Made by a program: the position numbers and the translations under genes
Part shown: piece by piece, positions 8,082 to 21,317 of the stretch
How positions within the stretch are numbered: position 1 is the stretch's first letter
Layout of the letters: each line of letters starts with the position of its first letter
Notes under the pieces: generated by a model
The model's input: the letters and a program-made list of their open reading frames with translations, nothing else
The model's database searches: none
What the model was told of the DNA's origin: nothing
From: Ignavibacteriales bacterium CG_4_9_14_3_um_filter_30_11
GTDB taxonomy: Bacteria > Bacteroidota > Ignavibacteria > Ignavibacteriales > Ignavibacteriaceae
Assembly (NCBI GenBank): GCA_002790365.1
Contig: PFVA01000086.1
Span: forward strand, 1-33,898
Direction: 5' to 3'
DNA: 33,898 nt

Positions 8082-8153
8082 TGACCCCAAGGGGATTCGA
8101 ACCCCTATTACCGCCGTGAAAGGGCGAGGTCCTAACCATTAGACGATGGGGCC
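8082..8153 (-). tRNA. tRNA-Glu (anticodon TTC)
   Basis: Reverse complement GGCCCCATCGTCTAATGGTTAGGACCTCGCCCTTTCACGGCGGTAATAGGGGTTCGAATCCCCTTGGGGTCA; CCA appears genomically encoded (TGG at 8079-8081). Confidence 0.95.
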
Positions 8154-8171
8154 AGAAAAAAATAATTGGAG

Positions 8172-8245
8172 GGTGAGCGATGGGGCTTGAACCCACGACC
8201 CTCAGGGCCACAACCTGATGCTCTACCAACTGAGCTACGCCCACC
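8172..8245 (-). tRNA. tRNA-His (anticodon GTG)
   Basis: Reverse complement GGTGGGCGTAGCTCAGTTGGTAGAGCATCAGGTTGTGGCCCTGAGGGTCGTGGGTTCAAGCCCCATCGCTCACC; extra 5' G paired with C73, as expected for tRNA-His. Confidence 0.95.
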
Positions 8246-8315
8246 ATAAAAAATAAATTGTAAATTACAAAATTCAAATAACAGATTTGTTATTTTTTAT
8301 TAAATTACCTAATTG

Positions 8316-8389
8316 TACGCCCGAGTGGACTCGAACCACTAACCTACAGCTTAGAAGGCTGTTGCTCTATCCAATTGAGCTACGGGCGC
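8316..8389 (-). tRNA. tRNA-Arg (anticodon TCT)
   Basis: Reverse complement GCGCCCGTAGCTCAATTGGATAGAGCAACAGCCTTCTAAGCTGTAGGTTAGTGGTTCGAGTCCACTCGGGCGTA. Confidence 0.95.
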
Positions 8390-8461
8390 AGGTTAGTAAA
8401 ATTACATTTATTCAATAAAATACAAAAAGAACTATGAGCATTTAAGTATTAAAACTTTTTG

Positions 8462-8536
8462 TCGGGGCGGCAAGATTCGAACTTGCGACCTCCTGCTCCC
8501 AAAGCAGGCGCGATAACCGGACTACGCTACGCCCCG
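8462..8536 (-). tRNA. tRNA-Pro (anticodon TGG)
   Basis: Reverse complement CGGGGCGTAGCGTAGTCCGGTTATCGCGCCTGCTTTGGGAGCAGGAGGTCGCAAGTTCGAATCTTGCCGCCCCGA. Confidence 0.95.
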
Positions 8537-8754: not shown

Positions 8755-9972
8755 ATGTCATTTACCTTTTTCATTGCATCAAAATATATCTTTTCTCGAA
8801 AAGGACCTAAATTCATTTCATTTATTTCTGCAGTAACGGTTTTAGGGATAGCATTGGGAGTAGCAACATTAATTTTAGCTTTAAGCATTTTAAGAGGATT
8901 TGAAAACACAATTACAAATAAAGTAATGGATTTTGATGCTCATCTTCAAATTACTTCGTACACCAACATTATCCCAGAATTTGACAGACTATTACCTTCC
9001 ATTAAAAATGAATTAAATGGAAATATTAATTCCATAAATCCATTTTTATCACAATTGGCGATAATAAGTAATAAAAGCATAAAAGAAGGTGTTAATATAA
9101 AAGGAATAAATATTTTAGATAATTGGAAAGGAATTAAAAAAGATATTATTAAAGGAAATTTTCTAAGCAACGATAATGAAAATGAACTAATTCTTGGTAA
9201 AAAATTAGCAGATAAATTATTCCTAAAAATAAATGAAAAAGTCACTTTATTTGCTCTTAATAATAACAAACTCCCCTCACCAGATAACCCTCCCAAAATT
9301 GAAAAATTTGTTATTAAAGGAATTTATGAAAGTGGAATGTCAGCTTATGACGACATCAATGTTTATGTTTCCCTTAATAATGCTCAAAAATTATTCGGTA
9401 TGAAAGGACAAATTTCAGGAATTGATATAAAAATCAATAATATTGCAAAGATAGACTCAACTAAAAATAAAATTCAAAAAAATCTTAGATATCCAAATAA
9501 AGTCAGTACAATTTATCAAACACACAGAAATATTTTTACATGGATAGAGTTACAGAAAAAGCCAATTCCTATTGTGCTGACATTAATAATAATTGTAGCT
9601 GTTTTTAATATCATTGGAACATTACTCATTTTAGCTCTAGAAAAAACTTCATCTCTCGGTTTGCTTAGATCAATTGGAGCTAAACGAAATCAAATAATAA
9701 AAATATTTTTAATTAATGGTTCAATATTATCAGTAATTGGAATTTTCATTGGTAATTTATTGGCATACATTCTTTCATTTTTACAATTAAATTACAATTT
9801 TATTTCTATACCTTCTTCGGTTTACTTGATGTCATCAATTCCTATTCAATTATCGCCTATTATTTTTATTGGTGTTTCGATTATTACTTTTCTGCTTTGT
9901 ATAGCATCATCAATTATTCCAAGTTTTATTGCTTCCAAAATTGATCCGATAAGAACATTGAGATTTAATTAA
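8755..9972 (+). CDS. LolC/LolE-type ABC transporter permease (FtsX/MacB superfamily)
   Basis: N-terminal IASKYIFSRKGPKFISFISAVTVLGIALGVATLILALSILRGFE; C-terminal LEKTSSLGLLRSIGAKRNQIIKIF...ASKIDPIRTLRFN. Confidence 0.88.
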   Translation: MSFTFFIASKYIFSRKGPKFISFISAVTVLGIALGVATLILALSILRGFENTITNKVMDFDAHLQITSYTNIIPEFDRLLPSIKNELNGNINSINPFLSQLAIISNKSIKEGVNIKGINILDNWKGIKKDIIKGNFLSNDNENELILGKKLADKLFLKINEKVTLFALNNNKLPSPDNPPKIEKFVIKGIYESGMSAYDDINVYVSLNNAQKLFGMKGQISGIDIKINNIAKIDSTKNKIQKNLRYPNKVSTIYQTHRNIFTWIELQKKPIPIVLTLIIIVAVFNIIGTLLILALEKTSSLGLLRSIGAKRNQIIKIFLINGSILSVIGIFIGNLLAYILSFLQLNYNFISIPSSVYLMSSIPIQLSPIIFIGVSIITFLLCIASSIIPSFIASKIDPIRTLRFN

Positions 9973-11195
9973 TGAAATTTGAAAATTTTATAGCTAAGAG
10001 ATATGTTATTTCAAAAAATAAATTGAATTTTATTTCAATAATTTCAATTCTATCTACTTTAGGTATAATGATTGGCGTAGGAGCTCTGATAGTAGTTATC
10101 TCTGTTTTTAATGGATTTAGTTCTCTTGTTACATCTTATCTGGTTAGTTTTGATCCTCATTTACAAATAAGAATGATTGAGAATACTTCAAATAATAATA
10201 TCCTTAAATTAGAAGATGAGCTAAAAAAAATTAAGGATGTAAATGGTTTTTCACCTTTTGTCTCCGGCAAAGTATTGGCATATCGTAATGAATTAGCTCA
10301 AGTTATCAACTTAAAAGGTATTAAAAAAAGCGATATTTATGATATAAAATCTAAGCTTATATTCGGTGAATACAACTTAGAACGAAATAACACTTACCCA
10401 AAAGCAATTTTAGGTTTACCTCTTGCTGATAGACTTCAGACTATTGTTGGTGATACTATTTCTTTAATCTCACCTTTTGGGATTGAAAAATCAATTACAC
10501 AATTTACACTTCCGAATACACAAAAATTTTTAGTTGCAGGTATTTATAATTCAAGAAATAATAAATACGATTCAGAATTTATTTTTACTGACCTTAATAC
10601 TGCTCAATATCTTATAGGGTATAAAGATAAATATGAAGGTTTTGATATAAAATTGAAAGATATATCTAATGCTTTTTCAATTAAAGAGATCCTTCAAACC
10701 AAACTTGATGAAAATATTTACAGTATTAATACCTGGTATGATTTTCACAAAGAGTTATATACAGTAATGAAGATTGAAAAATTAGTAGCATATTTAATTT
10801 TATCTTTAATTATTGCAGTTGCTACATTTAACATTTTAGGTTCACTAACCATGTCTGTTATACAGAAAAAAAGAGATATTGGTATTTTGAGGTCAATGGG
10901 TGTTACAGAAAACTCAATAAAAAGAATTTTTATGTATGAAGGATTATTGATAGGAATTTTAGGAACTACTGCCGGTCTGCTTTTGGGTTATTTGGTTTGT
11001 TATCTACAAATACATTTTAAGATTTATCCACTTGATCCAACTCAGTACAAAATTGATGCATTACCAATTCAATTAAAATTTTTAGATTTTATAATTATTA
11101 CATTTATTTCCTTGTCGCTTTCCTATTTTGCATCTTATTTCCCGGCAAAAAGAGCAGCAAAGGTAAATCCACTTAAAGCAATTAAATGGGAGTAA
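9972..11195 (+). CDS. LolC/LolE-type ABC transporter permease (second copy)
   Basis: FIAKRYVISKNKLNFISIISILSTLGIMIGVGALIVVISVFNGFSSLV; IQKKRDIGILRSMGVTENSIKRIFMYEGLLIGILG; 1-nt overlap with upstream ORF (TAATG). Confidence 0.9.
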   Translation: MKFENFIAKRYVISKNKLNFISIISILSTLGIMIGVGALIVVISVFNGFSSLVTSYLVSFDPHLQIRMIENTSNNNILKLEDELKKIKDVNGFSPFVSGKVLAYRNELAQVINLKGIKKSDIYDIKSKLIFGEYNLERNNTYPKAILGLPLADRLQTIVGDTISLISPFGIEKSITQFTLPNTQKFLVAGIYNSRNNKYDSEFIFTDLNTAQYLIGYKDKYEGFDIKLKDISNAFSIKEILQTKLDENIYSINTWYDFHKELYTVMKIEKLVAYLILSLIIAVATFNILGSLTMSVIQKKRDIGILRSMGVTENSIKRIFMYEGLLIGILGTTAGLLLGYLVCYLQIHFKIYPLDPTQYKIDALPIQLKFLDFIIITFISLSLSYFASYFPAKRAAKVNPLKAIKWE

Positions 11196-11207
11196 TATTT
11201 TTATAAC

Positions 11208-11888
11208 ATGAATATTGAGAAAAAACTAGAAGCAGAGAATATATCTAAATCATATTTAACCAATAAAAAAGTAAAACTTGAGGTTCTAAAATCTATCTCA
11301 TTGGAAATTGAGAAAAATAAAATAACTGTTATTGTTGGTGCTTCAGGTGCAGGTAAAAGTACTCTCCTTCATATTTTAGCCGGATTAGATACACCTGACA
11401 CCGGCAAAGTATTTTATGATGATAAAAATATTTTTGAATTTGATGAAAAGAAATTATCCAGCTTTAGAAATGAAAACATTGGACTTGTGTTTCAATTCCA
11501 TCATTTGTTGCCTGAATTTACTGCTGAAGAAAATATATTCATACCGAATCTAATAAAAGGAATTCATATCTCTAAAGCTAGAAATAAAGCCAAAGAGCTG
11601 CTTAATTTAGTTGGCCTTTTTGATAGATATTCACACAAACCTGCTGAACTTTCCGGTGGAGAGCAGCAAAGAATAGCAATTGCCCGAGCACTCGCAAATA
11701 ATCCGGATATAATTTTTGCAGACGAACCAACAGGTAATTTAGATACTGCAAACAGTGATGCTATTGATAAAATATTTATTGAATTGAGAGACATATATAA
11801 GAAGACATTAGTAATGGTTACACACAATAGAGAGCTTGTCGCCCTTGCAGACAAGGTCTTTGAAATGAAAGATGGAAAGTTGTTATAA
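11208..11888 (+). CDS. lolD: LolD-like ABC transporter ATP-binding protein
   Basis: Walker A GASGAGKSTLL, signature LSGGEQQR, Walker B IIFADEPTGNLD, H-loop THNREL; follows the two LolC/E-like permeases. Confidence 0.88.
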   Translation: MNIEKKLEAENISKSYLTNKKVKLEVLKSISLEIEKNKITVIVGASGAGKSTLLHILAGLDTPDTGKVFYDDKNIFEFDEKKLSSFRNENIGLVFQFHHLLPEFTAEENIFIPNLIKGIHISKARNKAKELLNLVGLFDRYSHKPAELSGGEQQRIAIARALANNPDIIFADEPTGNLDTANSDAIDKIFIELRDIYKKTLVMVTHNRELVALADKVFEMKDGKLL

Positions 11889-18263: not shown

Positions 18264-19808
18264 TTATAAAGGAATATTTCCGTGTTTTTTCTTGGGATTT
18301 TTATCTACTTTATTTTTTAGTATTGAAAAAGACTTTATAAGTTTTATTTTTGTTTCAGATGGTTCAATTACATCATCTAAAAATCCTCGTTCTGCTGCAA
18401 TGTATGGATTTGTAAATTTTTCTTTGTACTCAGTCAATTTTTTCTCAAGTTCAGCTATTGGATCTTTTGCTTTTTCAATTTCTTTTTTAAATATTATTTC
18501 AACAGCTCCTTGCGGACCCATTACTGCAATTTCAGCCGAAGGCCAAGCAAAATTAAAATCACCCCTAATATGTTTTGAATTCATTACATCATAAGCTCCA
18601 CCATAAGCTTTTCTTGTAATTACTGTAACTTTCGGAACAGTAGCTTCGCAGAAAGCATAAAGTAATTTTGCGCCGTGTTTAATTATTCCTCCCCATTCTT
18701 GAGCTGTGCCAGGTAAAAATCCCGGAACATCTTCTAGAACTAATAAAGGGATATTAAAAGCATCACAAAATCTTACAAATCTTGCTCCTTTAACTGAAGC
18801 ATCAATATCAAGTACACCAGCTAAAACCATTGGTTGATTAGCAACCACCCCTATAGATATTCCGCCAATTCTACAAAAGCCAACAATAATATTTTGTGCA
18901 AATTCACTTTGTACTTCAAAGAAATCATTGTCATCAACCAAACAAGAGATTACTTCTTTCATATCATAAGGTTTTGTGGACTGGTCAGGTATTATTGCAT
19001 TTAATTTAGTATCAACTTTTAATTTAGAGTAATCAAACTCTACTTCATTGGCTTTGTCCATAAAATTCAATGGAAGATAACTTAGTAATTTTCTAATATT
19101 TAATAATGTTTCGATTTCATTATCATAGATAAAATGAGCTACACCACTTTTTGTTGCATGAGTTACAGCTCCTCCTAAGTCTTCAAAACTGACTTTTTCA
19201 TGTGTAACAGTCTTTACTACATTTGGGCCGGTAACAAACATGTGACTTGTATTTTTTACCATAAAAATAAAATCAGTAATTGCAGGTGAATAAACAGCAC
19301 CACCTGCACAAGGTCCCATTATAGCAGATATTTGTGGAACAACACCGGATGCAAGTGTATTTTGTAAAAAGATATCTGCATATCCTCCCAAACTGACTAC
19401 TCCTTCTTGAATTCTTGCACCACCTGAATCATTCAGACCAACAATAGGGATTCCATTTTTTAAAGCAAGGCTCATTATCTTTAATATTTTTTCTGAATGT
19501 GTTTCAGATAAAGACCCACCAAATACAGTAAAATCTTGGCTATATAAAGCAATTGGTCTGCCATCAATTTTAGCCAGACCGGTTACAACACCATCTCCAG
19601 GATAATGCTGTTTATTAACTCCAAACGCTCTGGCACGATGCTTTACAAACATATCAATTTCATCAAAAGAATTCTCATCAACCAATAGCTCTATTCTTTC
19701 TCTGGCAGTTAGTTTTCCTTTATCGTGTTGCTTTTTAATTCTTTCTTTACCGCCGCCTAACATAGCTTTGGCTTTTTTATTTTTTAACTCTTCAATTTTT
19801 TCAGACAT
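18264..19808 (-). CDS. pccB: Acyl-CoA carboxylase beta subunit (propionyl-/methylmalonyl-CoA carboxyltransferase)
   Basis: [129 protein letters not shown]. Confidence 0.93.
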
Positions 19809-19818
19809 ATAGAACCCC

Positions 19819-20562
19819 TTATAATTTTAACTGGATATTATCCAAATTATTTTTTGTAAAAATATTAATAATTTTTTCTACTATTTTTTGTTGTCTGCTT
19901 CTTCTATCTTCTGAGCCTAGCTCCTTCCATTCTTCCAAAAGATTTATGGAATCTAAAAATGTTTCCTTTCCCTCTTTCATTAAATATATATTTTCAGATA
20001 AATAAATAGCATCACTAATATTTTTAGTATTTATAAGAAAAGAGACATCATATTTTTTTGAAATTGATTTAATCATATCAAATAATTCAAATTTAGTTTC
20101 GTCATCCATTACACAAAATGAATTATCAATTAAAATTAGGATTGAATTAAAAACTAAAGCCCTTGCAATTGATATTCTAAATCTAAAGCCTAAACTATTA
20201 TTATCAGAAAAATGTTTTTCATATCCATTCAGTCCAACATCATTTATGATTTGTAGAATATTATTTTCTATTTTGTTAGATAAATGTGTAGAATTTTCCA
20301 AAACATATTTAATATTATCTTCTACATTTAACCATGGAAACGAAGCTGGATCGGTTGGGATATATACAGCAGTTTCCATCTCATCTGAAAACTTAATTTC
20401 ACCATCAATATTATCTATAACTCTACCAATTATTTTTAACAATTTTGAAGCTGAATCATCAAAACAAACAATGCTATTTATTGAATTTATTTTGCAATTA
20501 ATATCAGAATTAAATTCTTTAATTACATTTTCATAATTCAAGTTATTTAATTTCATTCCCAT
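19819..20562 (-). CDS. TauB/SsuB-like ABC ATPase homologue with degenerate catalytic motifs (pseudo-ATPase)
   Basis: The listed ORF runs to 20634, but the ATG at 20562 lies just after the permease stop (GAATAATTATGGGAATG) and is the more likely start. Nucleotide-binding-domain framework recognisable: [16 protein letters not shown]...[14 protein letters not shown]...[73 protein letters not shown]. No GxxGxGKS/T, no LSGGQ, no Walker B Glu, no switch His. Confidence 0.82.
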
Positions 20563-20564
20563 AA

Positions 20565-21317
20565 TTATTCCCAATGGACAAATCGATTGAACACAATTTG
20601 AATTATATACTGAAAAATTATGATTAGTACACAAATGACTATAGTTGTAAGAAATAAAGAATAAAGGTCCTTTAGAATTAATGAACTATGTAAAACACTC
20701 CCTAAACCGTTAGTGTTCTGAATAAATTCAAATACTAATAATATCCCCCAAGTTTTGATATTCAAAACTAAAATAATTTTTTCCATTGAGGGAAGAATTT
20801 GTTTAAAATTTATTTCAGTAACTATTTTATTTTTATTAATGCCTAAAGATTTAGCTGAATTGAAATATGCATTTGATAATGTTTTGTTTATATCAATTAA
20901 TTGCAGAGAGATATAACCAAGACTTATAAACGCTAAAAATAAATATTCAATATAAATTGATTGAGGAAGCCAAAAGATTAAAAAGATAGAAAAGATAAAA
21001 ATTGGTACAAAAGAACCAGGTTTGGAAATTGCTTGTAATAAATCACTAAAGAGATTCTGAGTTAGCAAGTAATATCTCAAAAAATAAACTGAAAAAATGG
21101 ATGCAATTATTCCAAAGGTTATTGCTCCTATTGAGTATAATAAATTAGGGATTAATTGGTAATCAGAGATAATATCATTAAATGATTCTAAGAGAATAAT
21201 TGGTCGGGGGAGAATATTATTGCCAGAAAAAATAAACTGAAATAAAATTATCCAAATAATCAAAAAAGAGACTATAATCTTAAATGGTTTTTTGTAAATA
21301 ATTTTATTTAGAGACAT
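20565..21317 (-). CDS. ABC transporter permease, TauC/SsuC-type (nitrate/sulfonate/taurine family)
   Basis: Polytopic; EAA-loop-like NAYFNSAKSLGINKNKIVTEINFKQILPSMEKIILVLNIKTWGILLVFEFIQNTNGLGSVLHSS; ends HWE. Confidence 0.82.
   Translation of the reverse strand: MSLNKIIYKKPFKIIVSFLIIWIILFQFIFSGNNILPRPIILLESFNDIISDYQLIPNLLYSIGAITFGIIASIFSVYFLRYYLLTQNLFSDLLQAISKPGSFVPIFIFSIFLIFWLPQSIYIEYLFLAFISLGYISLQLIDINKTLSNAYFNSAKSLGINKNKIVTEINFKQILPSMEKIILVLNIKTWGILLVFEFIQNTNGLGSVLHSSLILKDLYSLFLTTIVICVLIIIFQYIIQIVFNRFVHWE

Follow-up and report, generated by a model that had tools for sequence, protein, structure and literature searches.

The gene P0001, which lies in the 33,898 nt stretch of Ignavibacteriales DNA analysed here (the window), probably encodes a conserved pseudo-ATPase that serves as a structural or gating partner of the adjacent ABC permease and not as its motor. 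The reading frame of the gene, the fold of its product and its pairing with the permease have stayed under purifying selection despite the loss of catalytic motifs. The features discussed below, all on the minus strand, are as follows:

18264–19808, minus strand: mmdA-like carboxyltransferase gene, the conserved downstream neighbour, 10 nt after P0001
19819–20562, minus strand: P0001, homologue of ABC nucleotide-binding subunits (putative pseudo-ATPase), 247 aa
20023–20034, minus strand: former H-loop, residues 177–180, INTK, with His replaced by Lys (K180)
20116–20139, minus strand: Walker B, residues 142–149, LILIDNSF, with Asp (D146) kept and the catalytic Glu replaced by Asn
20176–20202, minus strand: altered signature, residues 121–129, nearly invariant across the family
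20212–20235, minus strand: GLNGYEKH, residues 110–117, helical-subdomain patch adjoining the signature, with raised conservation in the family
20341–20367, minus strand: former Q-loop, residues 66–74, VYIPTDPAS, with Gln replaced by Thr (T70)
20425–20469, minus strand: former Walker A, residues 32–46, with Lys replaced by Ala (A38)
20565–21317, minus strand: permease gene, 250 aa, BPD_transp_1, NrtB/CmpB-like fold, the constant upstream partner

An earlier reading made from the sequence only had described an intact frame 2 nt downstream of its permease, and this was borne out: the frame of P0001 is open throughout, with no internal stops, and starts 2 nt past the permease stop codon, although a longer ORF, from a TTG at 20634, is also possible. 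Many ABC ATPase models match the product. PF00005 (ABC_tran) gives 27.8 bits, passing its curated cut-off of 25, and it matches 39 of the 40 members of the family alignment; the NCBIfam models WtpC and TauB give E values of 1e-18 to 1e-19, with scores below their curated cut-offs. The AF2 model of P0001 (pLDDT 91) has the nucleotide-binding domain (NBD) fold expected of such a subunit, and its best match among solved structures is the CmpBCD NBD (E 3.4e-15), while the best matches of the permease model are CmpBCD and NrtBCD. An NrtB/TauC-like permease with an adjoining ATPase is thus present, and both fold and alignment agree with the TauB/SsuB-like framework proposed for P0001 in the sequence-only reading. 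Predicted structure and alignment together indicate that P0001 and the permease are of the NitT/TauT importer type by descent, functional membership being a separate claim.

All the motif readings made earlier were confirmed in P0001. The Walker A position, GxxGxGKS/T in competent ATPases, holds CFDDSASK, with one residue deleted from the loop in addition to the loss of the P-loop Lys; the LSGGQ-type signature is replaced by NSLGFRFR (LSGGQ to NSLGF), in which Leu and the first Gly are gone and Ser (S123) and the second Gly (G125) stay; the Asp–Glu pair of Walker B is reduced to its Asp; and neither the Q-loop Gln nor the H-loop His is present. The claim that every motif had been lost therefore holds for Lys, Gln, Glu, His and the signature Leu and Gly, but it goes too far for D146, S123 and G125, which remain. 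By the usual sequence criteria, P0001 would not be a catalytically competent ABC ATPase.

About 107 orthologues of P0001 were collected across Ignavibacteriales and set against a reference panel of 54 canonical NitT ATPases drawn from many phyla. An orthologue is present in each of the four remaining genomes of the genus, flanked by the same genes as far as the contigs extend; the copy from G003 is partial (second half only). In P0001 and the three congeners whose copies cover the P-loop, the sequence there is CFDxSASxLLKIIG, and Walker B is DNSF in four copies and ANTF in the fifth. No copy of the genus retains the P-loop Lys or the catalytic Glu where these motifs are covered. A sequencing or assembly error, or a pseudogene confined to a single metagenome bin, might be suspected in a bin this fragmented (269 contigs, 76% complete), but it is refuted by the congeners, which share the motif states where covered. 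Across the order, the LSGG signature is absent from all of the approximately 107 orthologues, which mostly have SxGFRFR or a close variant. None of them has the H-loop His and only two apparent cases, maybe alignment shifts, have the Q-loop Gln, two residues found in 100% of the canonical NitT ATPases. Walker A is normal in most orthologues, the Walker B Asp occurs in 94% and the catalytic Glu in about half. Outside the genus, the P-loop Lys is also lost in G066 with G076, and in G156, G129, G014, G075, G122 and G137; the very diverged G019 copy lacks it too. Loss of Lys and Glu is, then, common to the genus where covered, and loss of the signature, Q-loop and H-loop residues to the order, and we did not meet canonical motifs among the close relatives.

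In a class-wide search with a strict cut-off the family was found in Ignavibacteriales only, with open frames in about 100 genomes from three families of the order; the genomes compared are mostly bins, and gene absence from incomplete bins is weak evidence. Three loci are unusual. G045 has two different ATPase copies at contig ends (L081:19072–19644 and L082:12918–13616), perhaps from a strain mixture in the bin. In G019 an extremely diverged permease and ATPase with open frames lie upstream of mmdA (L346:2639–3983), and the P-loop, signature and Walker B of this ATPase are all unrecognisable. L280 (G083:C8:10500–12400) contains a 571 aa open frame that matches both the permease and the ATPase profiles and is a possible fusion, with a canonical LSGGM.

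The retention of Walker A in most orthologues, together with the frequencies of the Walker B Asp and Glu given above and the kept signature Ser and second Gly, could be taken to mean that the family still works as an ABC motor, hydrolysing ATP through the altered signature, with other side chains standing in for Gln and His and with an unlinked binding protein. We regard this as highly improbable: the window's genus also lacks the P-loop Lys and the catalytic Glu, several genomes lack a NitT binding protein (PF09084/PF13379), and in HisP the Gln and the catalytic Glu are described as essential for hydrolysis, and the switch His as stabilising the transition state (PMC7468199).

No NitT binding protein was recognised within seven genes of the pair in neighbourhoods across the order, so that the NMT1/NrtA-type component of a NitT/TauT importer is missing near the pair; likewise, a genome-wide search covering two binding-protein families, PF09084 and PF13379, gave no match to either in six pair-bearing genomes (G053, G041, G055, G054, G039 and G044). 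Weak NMT1 matches in G000 and G004 were rejected as partners, being PhnD-like with a PhnC-like ATPase alongside. A few genera of the window's family have a gene of approximately 360 aa for a secreted, outer-membrane-like protein between the MBL gene and the pair, or mmdA (L345:1295–2440, L347:1514–2584, L348:1491–2564 and L344:2407–3480). As a candidate for the missing binding protein it was discarded, since its sequence suggests an outer-membrane-type protein and it is present without the pair in G012. A defence-system role was also set aside: the one weak PADLOC match (mad3, E 3e-5, C-terminal half) was taken as ABC background.

It is very unlikely, if slightly less so than a working motor, that P0001 is the dead half of a mixed pair with a canonical ATPase from elsewhere, or that a multitask ATPase energises the permease. 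Asymmetric sites do occur in many ABC exporters (PMC7756269), among them Pdr5, whose NBD1 has the same change of Glu to Asn; multitask ATPases exist (PMC7658222), and congeners hold long ATPases (about 370 aa) of possible MalK type (G002:C212 and G004:C13). Nevertheless, the window's genus showed no close canonical paralogue of NitT-like type, and the canonical ATPases examined there are encoded within operons of other systems (PhnC-like, osmoprotectant-like and Mla/Mce-like). Hence, of the roles suggested in the sequence-only reading for a conserved dead ABC subunit, a scaffold or regulator would fit best, while the asymmetric partner is the least supported. Elsewhere in the window, two LolC/E-like permease genes are followed by a canonical LolD-like ATPase gene (8755–11888), a contrast to P0001, and a cluster of four tRNA genes occupies 8082–8536 on the minus strand.

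The gene order across Ignavibacteriales is PfkB-MtnA-RecO-HtrA-AroC-MBL-permease-ATPase-mmdA-MltD, and the permease gene is immediately upstream of the ATPase gene in 38 of the 38 loci where a permease was found. Median gaps are −2.5 nt between permease and ATPase and 12 nt between ATPase and mmdA; because these inner gaps are small and those on both outer sides larger, permease, ATPase and mmdA are likely to form a single transcript. Many relatives also have, downstream of the pair, a TPP riboswitch before an operon with a TonB receptor, a thiamin-kinase-like protein and an SSS transporter (L076:14885–14983, L069:374–477 and L072:15639–15739); this thiamine-type operon is absent downstream of mltD in the window, and in G002 it shares a contig with the pair but is located upstream of it. 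The riboswitch is placed after mmdA and mltD, directly before the receptor gene, as a separate unit, and a thiamine link was therefore rejected as direct functional evidence for the pair.

In a tree of the family and canonical ATPases, built by a quick search with the motif columns removed and with many unsupported branches, the altered family forms one clade (SH-aLRT 99), with all canonical ATPases on the other side. The P-loop Lys state requires eight changes by parsimony, of which only two are forced by well-supported branches. The simplest order of events compatible with these sequences would be that Gln, signature and His were lost before the family spread, and Glu and the P-loop later and repeatedly.

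Ratios of dN/dS, obtained by Nei-Gojobori counting, were 0.15–0.31 in pairs of ATPases without a P-loop (intervals below 0.6) and mostly 0.07–0.22 in those bearing one (intervals well below 1), synonymous divergence being near saturation in the more distant pairs, so that the ratios from closer pairs are the reliable ones. Among the closer ATPase pairs of the genus the values were 0.23–0.31, with 95% intervals below 0.6, as anticipated for a gene that is not a recent pseudogene. When all pairs within the genus are considered, ATPase and permease give 0.22–0.37, against 0.02–0.15 for most neighbours; these two, along with the small gene that follows mltD (up to 0.29), are the least constrained genes of the neighbourhood. 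Purifying selection on the ATPase, as estimated from these counts, is real but modest.

The main rival of the pseudo-ATPase partner is a relic: a transporter that lost its binding protein and its drive long ago and decays slowly, selection only keeping the proteins foldable until they are deleted. This would account for the ratios of ATPase and permease relative to their neighbours and for the repeated loss of the P-loop. Many genera of the window's family also lack the pair, and in eight genomes without it the MBL gene is directly followed by mmdA, a clean deletion of the pair as a unit; furthermore, very diverged copies occur in G010, G019, G011 and G030. The rapid evolution of the pair and its frequent deletion also count against our preferred interpretation, and for this reason we give the relic some weight, though we consider it unlikely. 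Against it, the frames are intact in about 100 genomes of three families, the pair is kept at the same place order-wide, dN/dS is far under 1 even past P-loop loss, and certain positions were gained and fixed. Relative to canonical ATPases, information has been lost at the His, the Gln, the Walker A loop, the signature Leu, first Gly and Met, the D-loop Asp and the Walker B Pro, and conservation has been gained beside the signature (Y114, 100%; G113, 98%; E115, 90%; R127, 84%; H117, 79%), in a short helical-subdomain stretch (GLxGYExH) running into GFRFR. In ABC importers, the coupling helix of the permease lies opposite the helical subdomain and the region of the Q-loop. The Q-loop contact with the permease has been remarked previously (PMC7468199). 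Gains in the helical-subdomain patch combined with decay of the nucleotide site would thus suit a subunit kept for docking on the permease over catalysis.

We therefore favour the non-motor partner, a reading that both the sharing of the losses and the dN/dS values support. The family would comprise Ignavibacteriales pseudo-ATPases descended from a NitT/TauT-type ABC ATPase; P0001 would dock on the permease and hold or gate the permease dimer without powering it. In most of the order nucleotide may remain a ligand of the pseudo-ATPase, static or regulatory in role, and in the window's genus the protein is probably insensitive to it. A good Walker A persists in most members, so that nucleotide binding seems still to matter in most lineages, and this weakens the case for a role that is purely structural across the family. 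The complex of permease and pseudo-ATPase could let solute through unpumped, as a facilitator or channel, or serve in the membrane as a sensor or scaffold; bicarbonate or carboxylate as its substrate, hinted at by the constant mmdA neighbour and the CmpBCD-like fold, is speculation. More tentatively, and with much less confidence than in the role of P0001 itself, we raise the idea that the order has converted a type I ABC importer into a complex not driven by ATP. It would consist of a permease with a dedicated pseudo-NBD and no classical binding protein, would either let anions pass passively or work as a sensor linked to the biotin-dependent carboxyltransferase (mmdA), and would have lost nucleotide binding several times.

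We found no prior report of such a pseudo-ATPase family in the literature searched, most subscription journals being outside its scope. The family offers a graded natural series, with Gln, signature and His gone everywhere and Glu and the P-loop gone in some lineages. It lets one ask what purpose an NBD serves once it no longer acts as a motor, and whether a permease of the ABC type could persist as an unpowered facilitator or sensor. It also cautions that the annotation 'ABC transporter ATP-binding protein' does not guarantee a motor.

The pair shares with NitT/TauT importers (NrtBCD, CmpBCD, TauBC and SsuBC) the ATPase and permease folds, the side-by-side genes, the PWLNVxxNI segment and the W..E..GxG of the permease. 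It differs from them in that the P0001 family lacks LSGGQ, the H-loop His and the Q-loop Gln, with no NrtA/TauA-type protein nearby, and in that the P-loop Lys and catalytic Glu are missing as well in the window's genus. Non-classical ABC complexes such as FtsEX and MlaFEDB likewise have an ABC core without a classical soluble binding protein; FtsE and MlaF, unlike P0001, retain canonical catalytic motifs. MsmX and MsmK, multitask ATPases (PMC7658222), offer a possible likeness, in that the permease might use an ATPase from elsewhere, but they serve transporters without an ATPase gene of their own, whereas the P0001 permease always has one. Finally, exporters with a degenerate site (TAP, MRP1, CFTR and Pdr5; PMC7756269) show the same losses of Walker A Lys, Glu, signature and H-loop; in NBD1 of Pdr5, Glu is changed to Asn and Lys and His are lost, but Pdr5 is described as having a single degenerate site (PMC7756269). 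These exporters keep a second, competent site, whereas there is one ATPase gene per permease in the P0001 family, so that in a homodimer neither site would be intact. A single degenerate ATP site is already well known from ABC complexes; in the case of P0001, it is the sole dedicated ATPase subunit that lacks the catalytic motifs, a state fixed across an order.
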